DNA of 64,000 nucleotides from Desulfallas thermosapovorans DSM 6562 (lineage in GTDB: Bacteria; Bacillota; Desulfotomaculia; Desulfotomaculales; Desulfallaceae): NCBI RefSeq assembly GCF_008124625.1, contig NZ_VNHM01000002.1, forward strand, positions 124,001 to 188,000, given 5' to 3'. Below are positions 18,109 to 53,483 of this stretch, one piece after another. The translations under genes and the position numbers were made by a program. The first letter of the stretch is position 1; each line of letters starts with the position of its first letter. Under the pieces are notes generated by a model. That model saw only the letters and a list, made by a program, of their open reading frames with translations. It had not been told where the DNA came from and did not search any database.

Positions 18109-19455
18109 CTAAGTAATTTCGTATTTTTGTATACGGTATAGCAATGCCGAGCGGGTTATGCCCAGCAATTGGGCCGCTTTGGTTTGGTTGCCGCCGCTTT
18201 TTTCCAGTGCTTTGATAATCAATTCCTTTTCCACTTCTTCCAGGGATATGCCCTGTTCCGGGAGTTCCAACACCAATCCTGAACTGGGTTTGGTGGAAGC
18301 GTAAAGCTCCCGGGGTAGATGTTCCGGGTTGATAATTGAACCCTGACAGATGATGGCCGCCCTCTCGATTACATTTTGCAGTTCCCGGATGTTGCCGGGC
18401 CAGTGATAGTTGCATAAAAGCTCCATAGCCCTGGGAGAAATACTTTCCACCTGGTAGGTGGTGCCGAATTTTTTTAAAAAGTGTTTGGCCAGTAAGGGTA
18501 TATCTTCTTTGCGTTCTCTCAGAGGCGGCATGTGAATGTGAATGACATTTAGCCGGTAAAATAAATCTTCTCTGAAGTCCCCTTTGGTAATTGCATCGTT
18601 TAGCTGGCGGTTGGTGGCGGCGATAATCCGTACATCAACCGATAGTGTTTCGGTGCCGCCTACCCGCTCAAATGTTTTTTCCTGCAGCACCCTGAGCAGT
18701 TTGGCCTGCATATTCAATGACATTTCAGCGATTTCATCTAAAAATATAGTCCCCTTGTCCGCCAATTCAAAACGACCTAATTTGCGTGCCATTGCACCGG
18801 TAAAAGCACCCCGCTCGTGGCCGAACAGCTCGCTTTCCAGTAATTGCTCCGGCAGTGCCGCACAGTTTACCGCGATAAAGGGTGCGTTATGACGCTGGCT
18901 GTTGTTGTGAATGGTTACGGCGGCCACTTCCTTGCCGGTGCCGCTTTCACCCGTGATCAGTACGCTGGCATTGCTGTTGGCCACTTTTTCAATAAGGGCA
19001 ATGATTTCCTGCATTATTTTGCTCTGGCCTACCATGTTGTCATATTTACTGGTTAATTCGGAACGCAAAAAGGTTACCTCTGTTTCCAGCTGGCTTAATA
19101 ACAGGTTTTGCTTAATAACCAGTTTTAACTCATCCAAATCAAAAGGCTTGGTGATATAATCGGCGGCCCCCATTTTCATGGCTTCGATGGCTGTTTCAAT
19201 GGTGCCGTGGGCCGTGAGCATAATAACAGGCAGCTTGGGGTTAATGGCTTTGGCTTCCTTGAGCACTTCCATGCCATCCATGTCCGGCATGCGCAGGTCC
19301 AAAATCACCAGCGAGGGGGATTCCTCCCGGATCAGTTGAAGGCCTTGCTGACCCCGGTAAGCCACTGCGGTCTGATATCCCTCCTGGCGCATAGCCCTGT
19401 CCAATGCCCAGCACATATGCTCCTCGTCATCAATAATTAATATTTTGTGGGCCAT
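18109..19455 (-). CDS. sigma-54-dependent response regulator (NtrC/AtoC type)
   Basis: 448 residues. Receiver domain (1-120) with phospho-acceptor Asp in LVILDLRMPDMDG, Thr in MLTAHG and Lys in ITKPFD. AAA+ domain (140-370) with GESGTGKE, the sigma-54 loop GAFTGA, and FLDEIAEM. A Fis-type HTH closes it (GGNQTKAAQLLGITRSALLYRIQ). It ends the two-gene operon with the kinase, 25 bp apart. The probable target is the sigma-54 promoter at 21332 via the three dyads at 21156-21282, and possibly its own operon. Confidence 0.95.
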   Translation of the reverse strand: MAHKILIIDDEEHMCWALDRAMRQEGYQTAVAYRGQQGLQLIREESPSLVILDLRMPDMDGMEVLKEAKAINPKLPVIMLTAHGTIETAIEAMKMGAADYITKPFDLDELKLVIKQNLLLSQLETEVTFLRSELTSKYDNMVGQSKIMQEIIALIEKVANSNASVLITGESGTGKEVAAVTIHNNSQRHNAPFIAVNCAALPEQLLESELFGHERGAFTGAMARKLGRFELADKGTIFLDEIAEMSLNMQAKLLRVLQEKTFERVGGTETLSVDVRIIAATNRQLNDAITKGDFREDLFYRLNVIHIHMPPLRERKEDIPLLAKHFLKKFGTTYQVESISPRAMELLCNYHWPGNIRELQNVIERAAIICQGSIINPEHLPRELYASTKPSSGLVLELPEQGISLEEVEKELIIKALEKSGGNQTKAAQLLGITRSALLYRIQKYEIT

Positions 19456-19480: not shown

Positions 19481-21037
19481 TTATTTATAAAGATCGCATA
19501 TTTCCGGCAGGGGTAGCTGTACTGTGAAAGTAGTCCCTTCCTTAATATGACTGTCAACAGTGATATGACCGCCGTGCATGCGCACTATCTGGTGACTGAT
19601 GGACAATCCCAGGCCGGCGCCACTTTCCTTGGTGGTATAAAACGGGTCAAAAATCCTTCCCAAATCTGCTTGTTCAATGCCCGGACCGGTGTCGGTGAAT
19701 TCAGTATAGACCCATTTATCATCATGATATGTCTTGATGGTCAAAGTGCCGCCATCGGGCATGGCCTGAGTGGCATTTAATATTAAATTCACAAAAACCT
19801 GTTTTATTCTTTCCGCGTCCACCTCAGTGGCCGGGACGCTTTCATCCAGTTCCAGGTGGAGTTGGATGTTCTGCTGGCGTAGCATGGGGGAGGTAAAGGT
19901 GAGCACCCTTTCCAGCAGCGCGTTAATGTATGCATCCTGCAAAGTATTCTTGCCGGGTTTGCCGAAATCAAGCAGTTCCTGAATTACCCGGTTGGAGCGG
20001 GTTATTTGTTCGTTAATTATGGTTACATATTCTTTTGTTTCGTCGATGTGTGCGAAATCCTTCTCCATTAATTGAACGGTTGTCTTGATTACGCCAATGG
20101 GGTTGCGTAACTCGTGGGCTACACCGGTAACCAGCCTGCCCAGAGCCGCCAGTCGTTCCGAACGGCGCAGTTCCTCCTCCAACTTCTCCTTTTCAGCCAG
20201 GGACGCGGCCATCTTGTTCACTGCCCGGGCTATTTCTCCGGCTTCGCCGGGCAAATCAGGTATAAGATGACTGAGATCCCTTTCCATGATGCGCAGGCCG
20301 TTTTTAATTACAGTAACTCCACTGGATAAATTGTGTACGATAATCAGTGCCCCGATGGGGCTAAGCATCAGTGCCAGCAGCGTAAAAGAACGGGTCAAAG
20401 TACGAAAATTGCGGCTCTGGGCGAAGATGGGATGCACCCCCTGGTCTGCCCAGGCCACCGCAACCAGCTGGCTGTCAATGTATACCGGTGAAAGGTACTC
20501 GAAAGTTTGGTCGTTTAAGCTGCTGGCCAGCCTGGCCAGTGGTTGACCGCCGGCGGCCACGTTGATTAAGCCGCTGTTGGCTTCATCCAGAATCCTTCGC
20601 TCCCTCTGCCTTTGTTCTTCCGGGCTCAAGTCACGGTATTGATGTAAAAAACCATGAACAAATATCTGGCCGGTCTCGGGGATATACAAACCGAAACGAA
20701 CCCCGGGGTTACTGGGTACCAGCGGTTTGGCCGCCTGGTCAAAGGCTGCTCTCAGCTTTTCAACTCTTTGGGTGGTATCTAGGGTATTTATGTTTGTGTT
20801 GCCACTGGTAAGAGCAATATTTTTTTTGATATCCGGTATGATCACCGAGTCAATAATGGTGCCCAGTTTTTCCTTGCGTTCTATAAACATTGCTTCATCG
20901 CTGCGACTGGCAAAAAATAAGTCATACAAAATCACCAGCACGGGAATTATCAGCAGTATGGTGATGATTACCAGAAATTGTATGCGCAGACTGCCACCAA
21001 AGAAGCCGACAAAGATATTATTATCAGTACTTTTCAT
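19481..21037 (-). CDS. sensor histidine kinase
   Basis: About 518 residues. A transmembrane helix near 20-45, an extracellular sensing domain (about 50-215, Cache-like in size), a second helix near 220-245, HAMP, then HisKA with the phospho-His in GVAHELRNPIG. ATPase boxes are VNLILNATQAMPDGG (N), DTGPGIEQ (G1) and GAGLGLSIS (G2). Partner of the response regulator downstream. ATG 21037 has GAAAGG eight bases before it; GTG 21046 is less likely. Signal unknown; the divergent permease hints at a sulfonate, sulfite or organic acid. Confidence 0.93.
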   Translation of the reverse strand: MKSTDNNIFVGFFGGSLRIQFLVIITILLIIPVLVILYDLFFASRSDEAMFIERKEKLGTIIDSVIIPDIKKNIALTSGNTNINTLDTTQRVEKLRAAFDQAAKPLVPSNPGVRFGLYIPETGQIFVHGFLHQYRDLSPEEQRQRERRILDEANSGLINVAAGGQPLARLASSLNDQTFEYLSPVYIDSQLVAVAWADQGVHPIFAQSRNFRTLTRSFTLLALMLSPIGALIIVHNLSSGVTVIKNGLRIMERDLSHLIPDLPGEAGEIARAVNKMAASLAEKEKLEEELRRSERLAALGRLVTGVAHELRNPIGVIKTTVQLMEKDFAHIDETKEYVTIINEQITRSNRVIQELLDFGKPGKNTLQDAYINALLERVLTFTSPMLRQQNIQLHLELDESVPATEVDAERIKQVFVNLILNATQAMPDGGTLTIKTYHDDKWVYTEFTDTGPGIEQADLGRIFDPFYTTKESGAGLGLSISHQIVRMHGGHITVDSHIKEGTTFTVQLPLPEICDLYK

Positions 21038-21155
21038 AGGTTTCACCTTTCAAGATTAACGGGGTGAAGTAGCCGCCGAGCCTGTCTTTGTGCCTTTTTG
21101 AACAATTTTAATTAATTAAAAGATATATGCAAGATAGGATATGCGAGCAATCAAC

Positions 21156-21175
21156 ATTGTCTGATAACGCACAAT
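21156..21175. promoter_or_regulatory. activator-site dyad, copy 1
   Basis: ATTGTCTGATAACGCACAAT has perfect 5-base arms ATTGT/ACAAT. It shares ATTGTCTG-TA with copy 2, whose centre is 22 bp (two helical turns) away. About 190 bp upstream of the predicted start, a usual enhancer distance for NtrC-type activators. Confidence 0.6.
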
Positions 21176-21177
21176 CT

Positions 21178-21197
21178 ATTGTCTGTTATTATACACC
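21178..21197. promoter_or_regulatory. activator-site dyad, copy 2
   Basis: ATTGTCTGTTATTATACACC, the second copy of the motif. The left half matches copy 1; the right half is weaker. Two helical turns from copy 1, so two activator dimers would lie on the same face. Confidence 0.55.
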
Positions 21198-21262
21198 AAG
21201 ATAGGCCTTGAAGGGAATAATTTTTTGGTTTTAGCCTGCGCAAGCATAAAATAATCTAACTA

Positions 21263-21282
21263 ACTGTCTGTTATCAAACAAT
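21263..21282. promoter_or_regulatory. activator-site dyad, copy 3
   Basis: ACTGTCTGTTATCAAACAAT, third copy, with TGTCTGTTAT exactly as in copy 2 and the ACAAT right arm of copy 1. About 85 bp upstream of the predicted transcription start. Confidence 0.55.
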
Positions 21283-21331
21283 TTATTATTAATGGGTGTG
21301 TAAAAACCCGCAATAAAAGCGATTCGAGTTC

Positions 21332-21347
21332 TGGCACGGTCTGTGCA
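21332..21347 (+). promoter_or_regulatory. sigma-54 promoter for the TauE/SafE gene
   Basis: TGGCACGGTCTGTGCA: the -24 element TGGCAC is perfect and the -12 element GTGCA keeps the essential GC at correct spacing. Expected start near 21358. Fits the upstream dyads and the NtrC-type gene nearby. Confidence 0.8.
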
Positions 21348-21548
21348 ACAGGGTTTAAGTAATTATAATATTTTTCACATGCTTTGGTGCAAGTTAAAAC
21401 ACACAAATTCATTATATCACATTCTTGAACTACAAAAAAGAATAGAAGGAAGGGGGGAAACATAAGAGGTTTTCGGGTTTGGTTATCATTATTTATAAGT
21501 ATTATTACGAATTAAAAAAAACAAGACTATAGTATCGGGGGAAAAGAT

Positions 21549-22487
21549 ATGTTGGATGGAATTTTAGCCAAGGCCGGTTTGCTTATGGAACTGGCAAACA
21601 ACTCCCAGGTTGCCCAGGCTGTGACCCAGGCTTCAGGAACGCCGGGGATGCCCTGGTGGGCGTGGCCCCTTATATTACTGGTTACATGCTTTATCATGGG
21701 TATAGTTGCTGTAATGGCGGGTGTGGGCGGCGGTGTGCTCTTTGTACCCATCGTGGGTAGTTTCTTTCCGTTCCACCTGGATTTTGTACGGGGTGCAGGA
21801 CTGATTGTGGCCCTGGCCGGGGCTCTGGCAGCCGGCCCGGGTTTGCTGAAAGCCAACCTGGCTAATTTGCGCCTTGCTTTGCCGGTGGCGCTAATTGCCT
21901 CTACCTTTAGTATTGTGGGAGCGTTTATCGGCCTGGCGTTACCGGCGGATATATTGCAAATTTGCTTGGGTATAACCATTAGTTTGATTGCCATACTATT
22001 CATTTTTTCCAAGAACAGCGAATTCCCCAATGTGGGTCAACCGGATACCCTGTCCCGTTCTCTAAATATAACCGGTACTTATTACGAGCCTTCGGCCGGT
22101 AGACCGGTTAAGTGGACGGTTTGGCGTACACCCCAGGGGTTTTTGCTCTTCGTAGCCATCGGTATGGTGGCCGGTATGTTCGGCCTGGGTGCCGGTTGGG
22201 CCAATGTACCGGTGTTGAACCTGCTCATGGGCGCACCGCTGAAAATCGCTGTGGGATCAAGTAAATTTCTGTTATCCATTACTGACACGTCGGCAGCCTG
22301 GGTGTATTTAAACCAGGGGGCGGTGCTGCCCATCATTGCGGTGCCGTCGGTGTTGGGTATTATGCTGGGTTCACTGGTGGGTGTCAAACTGCTGGCCGGA
22401 GCAAAGCCCAAAATAGTGCGCAATATGGTTATTGTCATGCTGCTGTTTGCCGGCATCAGGTCATTGCTTAAAGGATTAGGATACTAG
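21549..22487 (+). CDS. TauE/SafE family permease
   Basis: 312 residues with eight or so hydrophobic helices in two repeated halves. The glycine-rich MAGVGGGVLFVPIVG in the first half and MFGLGAGWANVPVLN in the second are the family signature. Members export or import sulfite, sulfoacetate and other organic anions. Controlled by a sigma-54 promoter, so inducible through the adjacent two-component system. Substrate not predictable. ATG after GGGGGAAAAGAT. Confidence 0.9.
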   Translation: MLDGILAKAGLLMELANNSQVAQAVTQASGTPGMPWWAWPLILLVTCFIMGIVAVMAGVGGGVLFVPIVGSFFPFHLDFVRGAGLIVALAGALAAGPGLLKANLANLRLALPVALIASTFSIVGAFIGLALPADILQICLGITISLIAILFIFSKNSEFPNVGQPDTLSRSLNITGTYYEPSAGRPVKWTVWRTPQGFLLFVAIGMVAGMFGLGAGWANVPVLNLLMGAPLKIAVGSSKFLLSITDTSAAWVYLNQGAVLPIIAVPSVLGIMLGSLVGVKLLAGAKPKIVRNMVIVMLLFAGIRSLLKGLGY

Positions 22488-22503: not shown

Positions 22504-22986
22504 ATGAGTAGTCAAGTGAGAGCTGAGAATGTGCGGCAGCAAACTGCGCCGGAAAGGCAAAAAGCAGTGGCAGCCCAAATAGAAGTGCCTCCCGAGCAGA
22601 TTAAGTACGCTAATTTGTTGCTGTACTGCTCCTGGGCCGGAATTGGCATTTTGATGGTAACATTTCTGCTTTACATGAGTGGTATAATGGGTTCGTACAT
22701 TCCTCCGGCTGAAATATCACAATACTGGGGTATGAGTGTGCATGATTACCTGGTGGCCACGGGAGCCCCGCATGGTTGGGGTTGGCTGGGCATGCTGGGC
22801 AACAGCGACTACCTGAATTTAATTGGCATTGCCCTGCTGGCCACCCTTACCGTGGTGGGTTATGTAGCCCTTTTATTACCGGCCTACCTGCGCAAAAAGG
22901 ATATTCCGTATGCAACCATTGTTATGCTTGAGATTACTGTATTAACTCTGGCTGCCTCCGGGATTCTTAAAGTTGGTGCGCATTAA
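22504..22986 (+). CDS. small membrane protein, DUF1634-like partner of TauE/SafE
   Basis: 160 residues: a polar N-terminus of ~38 residues, then three hydrophobic helices (about 40-62, 98-122, 135-157). Size, topology and placement directly after a TauE/SafE gene match DUF1634 proteins, which commonly pair with such permeases. It starts 16 bp after the permease stop, behind GGGGGTAGAAGTAA. Function unknown; likely a permease accessory subunit. Confidence 0.75.
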   Translation: MSSQVRAENVRQQTAPERQKAVAAQIEVPPEQIKYANLLLYCSWAGIGILMVTFLLYMSGIMGSYIPPAEISQYWGMSVHDYLVATGAPHGWGWLGMLGNSDYLNLIGIALLATLTVVGYVALLLPAYLRKKDIPYATIVMLEITVLTLAASGILKVGAH

Positions 22987-23075: not shown

Positions 23076-23160
23076 CAGGTTCTATATTACAGTTGACCGT
23101 TATGTCTGAAAGGTTGCTAAACCCGGGGCCTGATAAAGTTATTTTTTGGAGGGTCATCTT

Positions 23161-23835
23161 ATGGATAGTAATTTTGTGGAACAGTTTACCAGGCACAAAA
23201 ATGAGTTTCTCAAAGAAATGACCAGGGGCAATGTGGAGATCAATTTTAAAAGCGATAGCCCTGCGGACAGTAAAAAGATGATACTGGAATTGTTTGAACA
23301 GTGGCTGTTGAGAAAGAATGAGCAGGAGCAATTACAACTGTCTCAAACTACCCGGGATGATACCCAGTCCTTTGATGTATTTCTGGATGATGTTTTATCC
23401 CGGGCTAAAAAAATATTGAGTGAGCGGGGCATTAAAATTGCCTATACCTCGCTGAGCAATAAATTTGGCATTACTGAATCCTGGAAATGTATCAGGGTAT
23501 TTGGCAGTAGTAACATATATTACAGGATAGGAAAAACCCGTCCCCGCAAAGGCCCCAATAAAGGCCGGGAGTACCTGGTGATAGACCTGGTTATGGACGG
23601 CAATAAGAAACAAGTATTTGTACCGCTGCTGCAAAAAAAGGATGTTATAGAGCACCGGCTGGGGACTTCTCTGGAGAGGGAACTGCCCAAGGTTGAGGCT
23701 ACCGGTAAATACCGGTTGAAACTGTTGTTGCCCTATGAGGTGGTAAGGGAAAGAAATAAACGCCTGGCGGCCAAAAAACTTGCGGATTTTGTCGAGGCAA
23801 CCAAGCCATATCTCAATGAGCTGGGTGTGGTGTGA
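23161..23835 (+). CDS. conserved-looking protein of unknown function
   Basis: About 224 residues, charged and mixed alpha/beta, with a basic centre (GKTRPRKGPNKGREYLVIDL). No signal peptide or membrane segment. ATG 23161 is chosen because TGGAGG lies eight bases before it; TTG 23146 overlaps that site. The order basic beta core then helical C-terminus (RERNKRLAAKKLADFVE) suggests nucleic acid or nucleotide contact, but this is a guess. Precedes the CBS gene by 135 bp. Confidence 0.7.
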   Translation: MDSNFVEQFTRHKNEFLKEMTRGNVEINFKSDSPADSKKMILELFEQWLLRKNEQEQLQLSQTTRDDTQSFDVFLDDVLSRAKKILSERGIKIAYTSLSNKFGITESWKCIRVFGSSNIYYRIGKTRPRKGPNKGREYLVIDLVMDGNKKQVFVPLLQKKDVIEHRLGTSLERELPKVEATGKYRLKLLLPYEVVRERNKRLAAKKLADFVEATKPYLNELGVV

Positions 23836-23970: not shown

Positions 23971-24513
23971 GTGTCTGAACAGTCTGAAAAAAGAGTTATT
24001 GATATTATGATCCCGGTGCGTAATTATAAAGTAGTATCGCACAACTGCACCGTTGCAGATGCCATTAAAGTATTGCACAGGGGTTTTTACCAACGCAATG
24101 CAGGAGGGCAGGGACACAGGTCGGTAATTGTCAGCGATGATTACGGCAACCCGCAGGGTATGGTTACTTTCCGGTCTGTGCTGCAAGCCCTTGAGCCCTT
24201 TTTTGCCAGGGCCGATCGTCTTTCCGTGCCCACCTTTTGGGAGGGATTGTTTACGGAAAGGTGTAAACACGAGGCCCAAAAAAGCATAAAAGATATTATG
24301 CATCCCATTAATGTTATCGCCCTGGACGCCAACGATACCTTAATTAAGGCAGTGCACGCGATGATTAAACATAAATTGGGCACGCTGCCGGTAAAGAAAA
24401 ACAACCGCCTGGTTGGTATGGTCAGGGTGAACGAATTGTTTGCCGAAGTATATGATCTGGTGGCCGGTGCCCGGAGCATGGAAGTTAGTAATGGCTACAA
24501 AATAGATATTTAA
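23971..24513 (+). CDS. CBS-domain pair protein
   Basis: 180 residues with two CBS motifs: IMIPVRNYKVVSHNCTVADA ... GMVTFRSVLQAL (about 12-75), and DIMHPINVIALDANDTLIKA ... NRLVGMVRVNELF (about 108-165). CBS pairs bind adenosine nucleotides and regulate partners. The long loop between them is unusual. GTG start after AGGAGG. Target unknown; the gene is followed by its own terminator. Confidence 0.88.
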   Translation: MSEQSEKRVIDIMIPVRNYKVVSHNCTVADAIKVLHRGFYQRNAGGQGHRSVIVSDDYGNPQGMVTFRSVLQALEPFFARADRLSVPTFWEGLFTERCKHEAQKSIKDIMHPINVIALDANDTLIKAVHAMIKHKLGTLPVKKNNRLVGMVRVNELFAEVYDLVAGARSMEVSNGYKIDI

Positions 24514-26656: not shown

Positions 26657-26773
26657 TTTTTTTTGCGGGCAAGCAGGAATTGCCAAGGTGGTGTGGAATA
26701 ACTATATGGGTTATGATTGACCCTATAATAGGGCCCAGGTGAATTAGGATATATTTCATACAATTGAATACCA

Positions 26774-26940
26774 CAGCAGGTGCCCTTTGGGAAAAGGGAG
26801 AATAGGGAACCGGGTGCAATTCCCGGGCGGTCCCGCCACTGTAACCGGGTAGCCCGCGCCATTTATAGCCACTGGTGATGTATCGCCGGGAAGGCGGCGC
26901 TTTAGGTGTCGATCCGGAAGCCAGGAGACCTGCCTGCTGT
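26774..26940 (+). ncRNA. cobalamin (AdoCbl) riboswitch
   Basis: P1 arms CAGCAGG (26774) and CCTGCTG (26933). The B12-box core appears as GGGTGCAATTCCCGGGCGG, TCCCGCCACTGTAACCGGG, and the 3' GATCCGGAAGCCAGGAGACC. All consensus blocks are in order. It precedes cobT and ends before a strong terminator, so high cobalamin should switch cobT off. Confidence 0.96.
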
Positions 26941-26987
26941 GCGGTAGACTCTTATTAATGAAAGGGTATATCGGTGGATGATGGTAA

Positions 26988-27021
26988 AGTTCACGGCCTT
27001 GTATGGCTGTGAACTTTTTTA
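26988..27021 (+). terminator. riboswitch expression-platform terminator
   Basis: GTTCACGGCC pairs with GGCTGTGAAC over ten bases around a 6-nt loop, followed by a T tract. It stands 47 bp after the aptamer and 45 bp before the cobT start, and should form when the aptamer is occupied. Confidence 0.9.
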
Positions 27022-48906: not shown

Positions 48907-48957
48907 TAATACGTACGTTAATCAGGTTATGGAATTTATTTTGCAAACCGGCATTAT

Positions 48958-51731: not shown

Positions 51732-53483
51732 ATGGCGATATTAAAACTTAAAAAATTAAAAATGGAGAATGTTGTTGTCAGCCTGGAAGACATCGTTGAT
51801 TCCTCCAGTAATGCTGTGGTGGCCGTTAACTGTGCTGGAATAATTGTTTATTGCAACAGTCAGGTGGAAAAAACCCTTGGTTTACCGACCCGGTTAATCA
51901 TAGGGCGGCATGTGGAAAAGTTTTTCCCCGGTACCGGGCTGTTGGAAGTGATGTCCGAGGGAAAACCGCAGTTGGGTTGCAAGTTTGTGCTTAATGGCGA
52001 CACTTACCTTTCCAATCGTAACCCCATCATCATTGATGGTAAAATCGTAGGTGCGGTGGCTGTTTTTCAGGATGTTACGGAAATTCAAAATATTATTGAT
52101 ACGCTGACTACCAAAAATGAAATTGTTTGCGAACTGCAGGAAACCCTTGCCAATGTGTTGGAACTATCCAATGATGGTATTATTGCCATTGACCGGGACT
52201 ACAAAATTACCATGGTCAACCAGCCCTATGCATCTTTTTTTAATAAAAAGCCCCAGGATTTAATTGGCATGGATGTTAGAGAACTTTACCACTGTAAACC
52301 TGTTTTCGCTCGCTCGATGGAGACCGGTGAAACCGAGTATGGATATGTCACAACTTTGAATGGCAAAGAGATCATAGCCAACAGAAAGCCCATAAAAAAG
52401 GATGGCCAAATTGTTGGTGCGCTGGGTACGGTGGCTTTTAAAACCATATCGGATTTATATGACCTGTCTCAAAAGATACAAAAATTACGCACCCAGCGTG
52501 ACTATTACAGGAATGAACTGGACCGCGCCCAGCGGACTCGTTTCACCTGCGAGCAAATTATCGGGCAGAGCCCTGCTTTCAGCGCCCTGAAAGAGACTGT
52601 CAAGAAAGTAGCCAAAAGCCATTCCACAGTGCTTATCAGAGGGGAAAGCGGTACGGGCAAAGAACTGTTTGCCCGGGCTATCCATGCTGAGAGTAGTCGC
52701 CACCGCGGACCTTTTGTGCGGGTAAACTGTGCCGCTATTCCCGAAAATCTCCTTGAATCGGAGTTGTTTGGATACAAGGAAGGGGCATTCACCGGAGCCA
52801 AACGAGGCGGTCATGTGGGGAAATTTGAGCTGGCGGACAAGGGGGTAATATTCCTGGATGAAATCGGGGATATGCCCCTGATGATGCAGGCCAAACTGCT
52901 GCGGGTGTTGCAGGAAAAAGAAATTGAACGTCTCGGAGATACCAAACCGCGCAAGGTTGATGTGCGCGTAATTGCCGCCACCAATCGTGATCTTGAAGAG
53001 ATGATTATTAACGGGGAGTTTCGCGAAGATCTTTATTACAGGGTTAATGTCGTCACCCTGAATATTCCGCCCCTGCGCAGGCGGGGTGAAGATATCGATT
53101 TGCTGATGCATTATTTTATTAAACGGTTTAATGAAATCTTTGGCCTTGAGGTGGCGGGGGCCGATAACGAGGTCATTCAGATTTTCAAGAACCACCGCTG
53201 GCCGGGTAATGTGCGGGAATTGGAAAATGTTATAGAGAGGGCCTTTAATGTTATAGACGGGAATATGATTCGCAAGGAACATCTGCCCATGTACCTGCAT
53301 AACAGTCAAAAGTACAAGGTCATCAGCCGCGAAGGCGGGCTGGCCAAACTGGTGGAAGATATTGAGCGGGAAGCTATCGTGGATGCGCTGGAAGCCTGTG
53401 GTGGTAATAAAAACCGGGCAGCTGCCATGCTGGGGATCTCCCGGGCAGGACTTTATAAAAAGTTAAGCCGGTATAAAATATAG
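51732..53483 (+). CDS. sigma-54-dependent PAS activator
   Basis: 583 residues. Two PAS domains (about 15-120 and 135-245), a short coiled linker, AAA+ with GESGTGKE, GAFTGA and FLDEIGDMP, and a C-terminal Fis-type HTH (GGNKNRAAAMLGISRAGLYKKLS). Resembles RocR/PrdR-type activators that sense small metabolites. The likely target is the promoter at 50136. No receiver domain, so not a two-component partner. Confidence 0.94.
   Translation: MAILKLKKLKMENVVVSLEDIVDSSSNAVVAVNCAGIIVYCNSQVEKTLGLPTRLIIGRHVEKFFPGTGLLEVMSEGKPQLGCKFVLNGDTYLSNRNPIIIDGKIVGAVAVFQDVTEIQNIIDTLTTKNEIVCELQETLANVLELSNDGIIAIDRDYKITMVNQPYASFFNKKPQDLIGMDVRELYHCKPVFARSMETGETEYGYVTTLNGKEIIANRKPIKKDGQIVGALGTVAFKTISDLYDLSQKIQKLRTQRDYYRNELDRAQRTRFTCEQIIGQSPAFSALKETVKKVAKSHSTVLIRGESGTGKELFARAIHAESSRHRGPFVRVNCAAIPENLLESELFGYKEGAFTGAKRGGHVGKFELADKGVIFLDEIGDMPLMMQAKLLRVLQEKEIERLGDTKPRKVDVRVIAATNRDLEEMIINGEFREDLYYRVNVVTLNIPPLRRRGEDIDLLMHYFIKRFNEIFGLEVAGADNEVIQIFKNHRWPGNVRELENVIERAFNVIDGNMIRKEHLPMYLHNSQKYKVISREGGLAKLVEDIEREAIVDALEACGGNKNRAAAMLGISRAGLYKKLSRYKI

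Follow-up and report, generated by a model that had tools for sequence, protein, structure and literature searches.

The locus and its control region

We analysed a window of 64 kb (G000:C2:124001-188000; genome size 2.96 Mb) in which a two-component system and a transporter gene pair are divergently arranged around a common intergenic region. The relevant features are as follows:

18109-19455, minus strand: NtrC-type response regulator with a receiver, a sigma-54 AAA+ domain with GAFTGA and a Fis-type HTH (LLGITRSALLYR)
19481-21046, minus strand: sensor histidine kinase with two predicted membrane helices, HisKA and HATPase_c
21158-21173, plus strand: predicted upstream activator dyad 1 (distal), TGTCTGATAACGCACA, centre 21165.5
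21180-21195, plus strand: predicted upstream activator dyad 2, TGTCTGTTATTATACA, centre 21187.5
21265-21280, plus strand: predicted upstream activator dyad 3 (proximal), TGTCTGTTATCAAACA, centre 21272.5, a full match to TGTYTGWTAWCARACA
21332-21347, plus strand: predicted sigma-54 (-24/-12) promoter, TGGCACGGTCTGTGCA, recognised by sequence, position relative to the dyads and conservation
21371-21379, plus strand: conserved TTTTTCACA element, lying at roughly +14 to +22 relative to the predicted sigma-54 start
21411-21421, minus strand: putative extended -10 promoter, TGTGATATAAT, directed towards the kinase-regulator operon, with a predicted start near 21404
21549-22487, plus strand: TauE/SafE (TSUP) permease, the presumed target gene (PF01925 match of 125 bits, cut-off 32.6)
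22504-22986, plus strand: SMP, the partner of TauE, probably a membrane protein (160 aa), of no Pfam family
23146-23835, plus strand: ORF229, a possible further operon member, which comes first behind the control region in Desulfofundulus and Desulfovirgula loci
23971-24513, plus strand: CBS-domain protein, preceded in some relatives by dyads and a sigma-54 site of its own, none of these being seen in the window

Elsewhere in the window, a cobalamin riboswitch (26761-26951; 135.6 bits) precedes an ORF at 27003 which, by eye, encodes a CobT-like enzyme, and another NtrC-type activator gene (52548-53480, within a 592-aa open frame) has -24/-12-like sites nearby, at 48930 and 50136. This riboswitch and two tRNAs are the only Rfam content of the window; no Rfam match was obtained at gathering thresholds for the tauE leader.

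The dyads and the sigma-54 promoter

The three dyads are spaced by 22 and 85 bp and share the pattern TGTCTG[A/T]TA-N4-ACA. The sequence-only reading had described them as three 20-bp copies of one motif; their number, positions and spacing stand, while the conserved core is a 16-bp dyad with the consensus TGTYTGWTAWCARACA. TGTCTGWTANNNNACA occurs three times in the 64-kb window, each time within the control region, and in 100 dinucleotide-preserving shuffles of the window it had a mean of 0.01 and never reached three, the search pattern having been composed after the sites were already known. Chance repeats were therefore ruled out as an explanation of the dyads.

The -24/-12 site TGGCACGGTCTGTGCA differs at one position from TGGCAC-N5-TTGC[A/T], with its GG and GC 10 bp apart. 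The hexamers alone are not significant (one found, 0.20 expected in shuffles), so the case for this promoter rests on its position and conservation. Both bear out the earlier assignment of a promoter at 21332, as its place relative to the dyads is kept in relatives. The transcription start is predicted at 21358, from the usual -24/-12 numbering, and the dyads then lie at about -200 to -78, within the range of upstream activator sites (~80-200 bp before the start), which makes them candidate sites of this kind.

The TTTTTCACA element downstream of the promoter recurs in 14 of the 22 distinct regions (shuffle mean 0.09), 32-42 bp past the promoter TGG. Helical phasing of two TCACA elements was considered and rejected: they are 41-44 or 20 apart in ten loci and, by eye, ~24 apart in Desulfofundulus-type loci.

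Conservation of the control region

The closest named relatives of the window TauE belong to Desulfotruncus, Desulfoscipio and uncultured Peptococcaceae, a list that may lack the records of the window itself and any very close to it. The divergent gene order, with regulator and kinase on one side and TauE, SMP, ORF229 and the CBS gene on the other, is kept in close relatives. Our sample for the control region comprised 22 distinct intergenic regions beside the same regulator, the window included. It was obtained from 23 by removal of L101 (same genome as L041), and records L050, L052-L056, L060 and L062, which duplicate L037, L034-L036, L038, L042, L044 and L049, were counted once. Since no kinase was found in L042 or L049, their regions start from the regulator.

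Dyads together with the promoter recur in 20 of the 22 regions, and a looser dyad pattern is likewise present in 20 (0.09 in shuffles). Loss of the dyads in relatives had been named beforehand as the result that would refute the motif, and the comparison did not refute it. The two other regions, both from Desulfosporosinus (L067, L068), have another dyad type before the promoter. The two distal dyads are spaced by 22 bp in 12/22 regions (including L036 and L038, where the first distal site is weak) and by 21 bp in 3/22; in 5/22, two single dyads separated by 63-77 bp stand in place of the pair. The proximal dyad starts 66-79 bp ahead of the promoter TGG in 18 of the 20 dyad-bearing regions, the outliers being L043 (88 bp) and L049 (195 bp).

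Five further loci (L040, L045-L048) were handled apart from the 22, with the short contig L021 omitted there. In three of them (L040, L045, L046) the extended -10 element, a dyad and the promoter are all present, the single dyad of L046 being located downstream of the promoter. Neither dyad nor promoter was seen upstream of the kinase in L047.

The regulator and its probable binding sites

The regulator matches PF00072, PF00158 and PF02954 and contains both GAFTGA and D53, which identifies it as an NtrC-type protein. GAFTGA is found in 27 of 29 regulator rows and GSFTGA in the other two.

The association between regulator and dyads was analysed in 80 TauE homologues from named genomes (the duplicate records do count within this tally), the regulator being scored where a protein more than 60% identical was encoded on the fetched DNA. 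This was the case in 16 of the 80 loci. Eleven of these have two or more dyads in the 700 bp ahead of TauE; three others (L085, L091, L101) have their dyads before ORF229, there the first gene, and the remaining two are L067 and L068, with the other dyad type. The regulator-less loci number 64, or 62 after exclusion of L072 and L110, which have no DNA upstream of TauE (L126 has 216 bp); some contigs are short, such that failure to find the regulator does not always prove that it is missing. Only one of these 62, L051, has at least two dyads before TauE, and three have a single match. L051 represents the second of two TauE copies in Desulfotruncus alcoholivorax, and the genome of this organism does contain the regulator. 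The two TauE-SMP copies of this species (L050, L051) are equally similar to those of the window and each is accompanied by dyads and a sigma-54 promoter, with the regulator adjoining only one of them on the fetched DNA. At the level of whole genomes, 14 of 31 were found to have the window TauE, and all 14 encode the regulator at a minimum of 65% identity.

The dyad type also changes with the recognition helix of the regulator. The helix TRSALLYR, present in 22/29 rows, goes with TGTYTGWTAWCARACA dyads, and the variants TRSAFLYR (L042) and TRSALIYR (L049) are also accompanied by the dyad type of the window. By contrast, SRPTLLYR (L067, L068) and TRATLIYR (L048) go with TGTAGCA-TGCTACA-type dyads beside a -24/-12 site, which in L048 lies 2.7 kb beyond the regulator gene and not at the kinase. 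No dyad of the latter type was found on the locus of L047 (helix TRATLLYR). This paired difference, which comes from few independent cases, is the best evidence, a footprint aside, that the regulator reads the dyads.

Another NtrC-type protein, or a repressor, might bind the dyads instead, leaving the divergent pair a mere neighbour. In favour of this, the regulator has 31 matches in the genome at E<=0.001, and sites of the form TGT-N10-12-ACA are described as being used by many activators (PMC6615313). Nevertheless, the dyads go with the orthologous regulator from locus to locus, their type changes with its recognition helix, and no TauE genome among the 31 lacks it, all of which makes binding by another protein highly improbable. 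The proposal that the divergent kinase/NtrC-type pair is the controller thus gains support from position, conservation, co-occurrence and the pairing of helix and dyad, and on these grounds the regulator very probably activates TauE-SMP through sigma-54.

A paralogous regulator (L033:5504-6835; 70% identical; helix SRSAFLYR) adjoins a CBS gene with its own dyads and sigma-54 site.

Extent of the regulon

The genome was searched with the dyad pattern at up to two mismatches, and the relatives with one mismatch only; weaker sites would escape. In this genome 16 palindromic places were found, against 10 for a reversed control pattern; three are the window dyads and 13 lie elsewhere. Twelve of the latter were scanned, and none combines a second dyad with a -24/-12 site inside 300 bp; the remaining one (C24:7359) was viewed for dyads and reading frames only. 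The sole dyad cluster with a -24/-12 site, at up to two mismatches, is that of the window, and a wide regulon in this genome was accordingly rejected. The suggestion that the motif would define a regulon holds only in a reduced form: at the threshold used it marks one promoter in this genome, and there are one to three in the loci of relatives that were examined.

In relatives, dyads and a sigma-54 site precede TauE-SMP, ORF229 or CBS-domain genes. The last arrangement was found in L033, L036, L038 and L045; the CBS-gene dyad lies 444 bp ahead of the promoter in L043 and downstream of it in L046. In L045 the first substantial gene after one such promoter, about 1 kb on, is Na_sulph_symp (sodium:sulfate-symporter family). 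In L040 the gene behind the dyads and sigma-54 site is another member of the TauE family, with an Alph_Pro_TM gene next in line, and L048 has the same target (by reading frame) with the other dyad. A fragment of a second TauE gene in the relative G007 (L033:3811-4077) is still preceded by a dyad and a -24/-12 site.

A probable facing promoter for the kinase-regulator genes

The control region had been called complete, and in this respect the earlier description fell short, as it had missed the extended -10 element at 21411-21421 (minus strand). TRTGN is the -16 region of Gram-positive promoters, and the extended -10 pattern TGNTATAAT is present at 21421-21411 as TGTGATATAAT. The element is located between the sigma-54 promoter and its target gene, on the strand from which the kinase is read, and hence the two promoters would face each other. 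TGTGATATAAT occurs once in the window with 0.46 expected, so this assignment, too, rests on conservation. TGNTATAAT is present in 21 of the 22 distinct regions (0.60 in shuffles), the exception being L068, which reads TGATACAAT, and the stricter TRTGNTATAAT in 19 (0.08 in shuffles); in the opposite orientation TGNTATAAT was found in 0/22 regions (shuffles 0.77). All four bases occur at the free position among loci. Outside the 22 regions the element is also present in L040 (C), L046 (G) and L045 (two copies, T and C). Its distance to the sigma-54 TGG ranges from about 24 to 163 bp and is ~143 bp in L059.

Three loci, L042, L045 and L049, have the extended -10 element pointing at the regulator alone. 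The fetched DNA of L042 and L049 (records L056, L062) yielded no kinase homologue, and none with 45% identity or more was recorded at the L045 locus. In 8 of the 22 regions only 23-55 bp separate the kinase or regulator start from the distal dyad, lengths that are approximate, the gene starts of relatives being alignment starts; L042, whose 23-bp zone rests on a weak site, is not among the eight. A sigma-A promoter close to the kinase was considered as well and rejected, since the mean hexamer-pair score over the 22 regions (5.11) shows no excess over shuffles (5.22). A second TGNTATAAT is nevertheless present on the kinase side in L037 and L039, both of them Desulfotruncus-type loci.

The minus-strand TGNTATAAT might also be an operator or an element of the tauE leader that merely resembles an extended -10. 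It has no recognisable TTGACA -35 (by eye), the second conserved element TTTTTCACA lies alongside, and in the window's own family the conservation exceeds the hexamer (GAATGTGATATAATGAATTTG), all of which would fit such a role. In distant loci, however, only TGNTATAAT persists, mostly as TRTGNTATAAT and with all four bases at N; moreover, the element is always directed at the kinase or regulator, and the eight short regions leave little room elsewhere for their promoter. We therefore regard an operator or leader element as unlikely, and it seems quite probable that TGTGATATAAT is the kinase-regulator promoter, facing the sigma-54 promoter.

The sensor kinase

The extracytoplasmic part of the kinase (about residues 45-207) is predicted, with good confidence (pLDDT 85, pTM 0.81), to adopt a Cache/PAS-like fold. 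Searched alone, the sensor had WalK/YycG as its first fold match (Z 12.9, rmsd 3.2, 133 aligned), followed by chemoreceptor Cache, KinD and CitA domains (Foldseek best E 2.1e-4); the search with the full-length kinase tested mainly the catalytic part. These matches assign a fold class and no ligand, and the predicted Cache/PAS-like fold suggests that the signal may be a small external ligand. The listed GTG start of the kinase overlaps a probable ribosome-binding site (21037-21046), and by eye the ATG at 21037 is the more likely start.

The transporter pair and its candidate substrate

With tblastn, an SMP relative was detected at every one of the 80 named TauE loci, and in 79 of them it lies no more than 400 bp behind TauE. 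We take most of these loci to come from sulfate-reducing lineages, with some from MAGs of other phyla. No solved structure was found for TauE by sequence at E<=1, and PHROGs yielded nothing for ORF229 or SMP.

The genome of the window, which is that of a member of the Desulfotomaculales, holds 10 TauE-family genes; dsrA is present and SulP was not found. Presence of dsrA was rejected as a link between the module and sulfate reduction, as it is not discriminating: 29 of the 31 genomes have it, including all 14 with TauE. At the cut-off used, 15 of the 29 dsrA-bearing genomes are without a window-type TauE, and the same-genus genomes G001-G004 have dsrA and lack both TauE and the regulator. Since so many dsrA-bearing genomes do without TauE, sulfate reduction does not require the module.

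The basis for naming a substrate is circumstantial. It consists of the families of the target transporters, an ATP sulfurylase near TauE in one cluster of three loci (one member checked) and the lack of SulP, while the dsrA-bearing genomes without TauE count against it. On balance, the cargo is probably sulfate or a related sulfur oxyanion, and we put the chances that the transporter imports sulfate as even.

TauE/SafE proteins are usually named sulfite exporters. TauE-SMP might accordingly export sulfite, or a sulfonate-derived anion, for detoxification, with the kinase sensing that stress; besides the Pfam name TauE/SafE itself, the TauE of C. necator is a proposed sulfite exporter, cited as such in PMC3949148 and PMC5840216. 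On the other hand, a related regulator precedes a gene of the sodium:sulfate-symporter family, PMC5840216 weighs whether TSUP proteins could be the primary sulfate transporters when no others are present, and sulfite import is suggested in PMC3949148 for the TauE homologue AF1562. Export for detoxification consequently appears a rather doubtful reading.

Comparison with known systems

One close parallel is DVU2956 of Desulfovibrio vulgaris, described as binding, by EMSA, an upstream site and as controlling the sigma-54 operon DVU2957-DVU2964 (PMC4641369), which is classed as transmembrane transport (Kazakov 2015, PMC4641369) and whose DVU2958 is placed in a conserved TSUP clade (PMC5840216). 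As in the window, a divergent sigma-54 activator stands beside a transport operon; however, DVU2956 is described as being without an N-terminal domain (PMC4641369), whereas the regulator of the window belongs to a two-component system with its own kinase. The Desulfovibrionaceae loci L107 and L084 match the DVU2956 layout, with TauE-SMP beside a divergent receiverless activator; these activators are GAFTGA proteins of 345 and 360 aa in which, by eye, the AAA+ domain begins near the N-terminus. In the set L070-L129, four of 57 loci (L077, L084, L088 and L123) have a site scoring 15 or more on the -24/-12 scale ahead of TauE, all four without a window-type regulator; L107 has no such site. The TauE permease thus appears to be under sigma-54 control in distant sulfate reducers through different activators, and DVU2958 would be an orthologue of the window TauE.

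DVU0110 and DVUA0057 resemble the window system as two-component sigma-54 regulators acting on a TSUP operon, DVU0132-DVU0133, but they are other regulators with further targets in exopolysaccharide and biofilm formation, as described in PMC4641369 and PMC3333781. Two Clostridiales sigma-54 groups, XhpR (hyp-memP) and XptB (sulT, hyp), follow the same general sigma-54 logic, as far as their main-text description goes (Nie 2019, PMC6615313). XhpR is assigned TGT/ACA sites with a 10-12-bp spacer and includes Desulfosporosinus and Desulfotomaculum (PMC6615313); TauE is not named in the main text of that paper. A limited literature search returned no paper on a sulfite exporter TauE under two-component sigma54 control in Desulfovibrio.

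Proposed mechanism and its implications

The dyads, the promoter, their conservation, the association of regulator and dyads and the facing extended -10 element are shown by the sequence. From knowledge of these protein families, the membrane kinase, with its extracytoplasmic Cache/PAS-like sensor, would phosphorylate the adjacent NtrC-type regulator, which would bind the three 16-bp dyads, assemble an AAA+ ring, loop to sigma-54 polymerase at 21332-21347 and open the complex at about 21358. The kinase-regulator operon would be transcribed in the opposite direction from the extended -10 sigma-A promoter at 21411-21421, and its transcript, starting near 21404 with a leader of about 360 nt, would cross the sigma-54 promoter and the dyads. 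Because that transcript crosses the enhancer and promoter, active complexes there would tend to block synthesis of the kinase and regulator, and we infer from this a built-in feedback between the two promoters.

The control region follows a well-known design; what a specialist would gain from it is the facing promoter and the pairing of helix and dyad. A limited literature search found no paper on sigma54 with convergent promoters and a histidine kinase, which does not prove novelty. We tentatively propose that the facing promoters are interlocked, the kinase-regulator start lying inside the transporter leader, such that enhancer occupancy and the two polymerases might regulate each other. This layout, kept despite changes in activator specificity and transporter gene, could then form a self-limiting sulfur-oxyanion switch in spore-forming sulfate reducers.

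If the facing promoters work in this way, the locus would be a compact two-component system that limits its own synthesis via the promoter which it activates. The proteins of sulfate uptake in dissimilatory sulfate reducers are described as largely unsettled (PMC5840216), and the conserved transporter pair, its likely activator, the candidate sites and the two natural specificity classes offer a concrete entry to this question.
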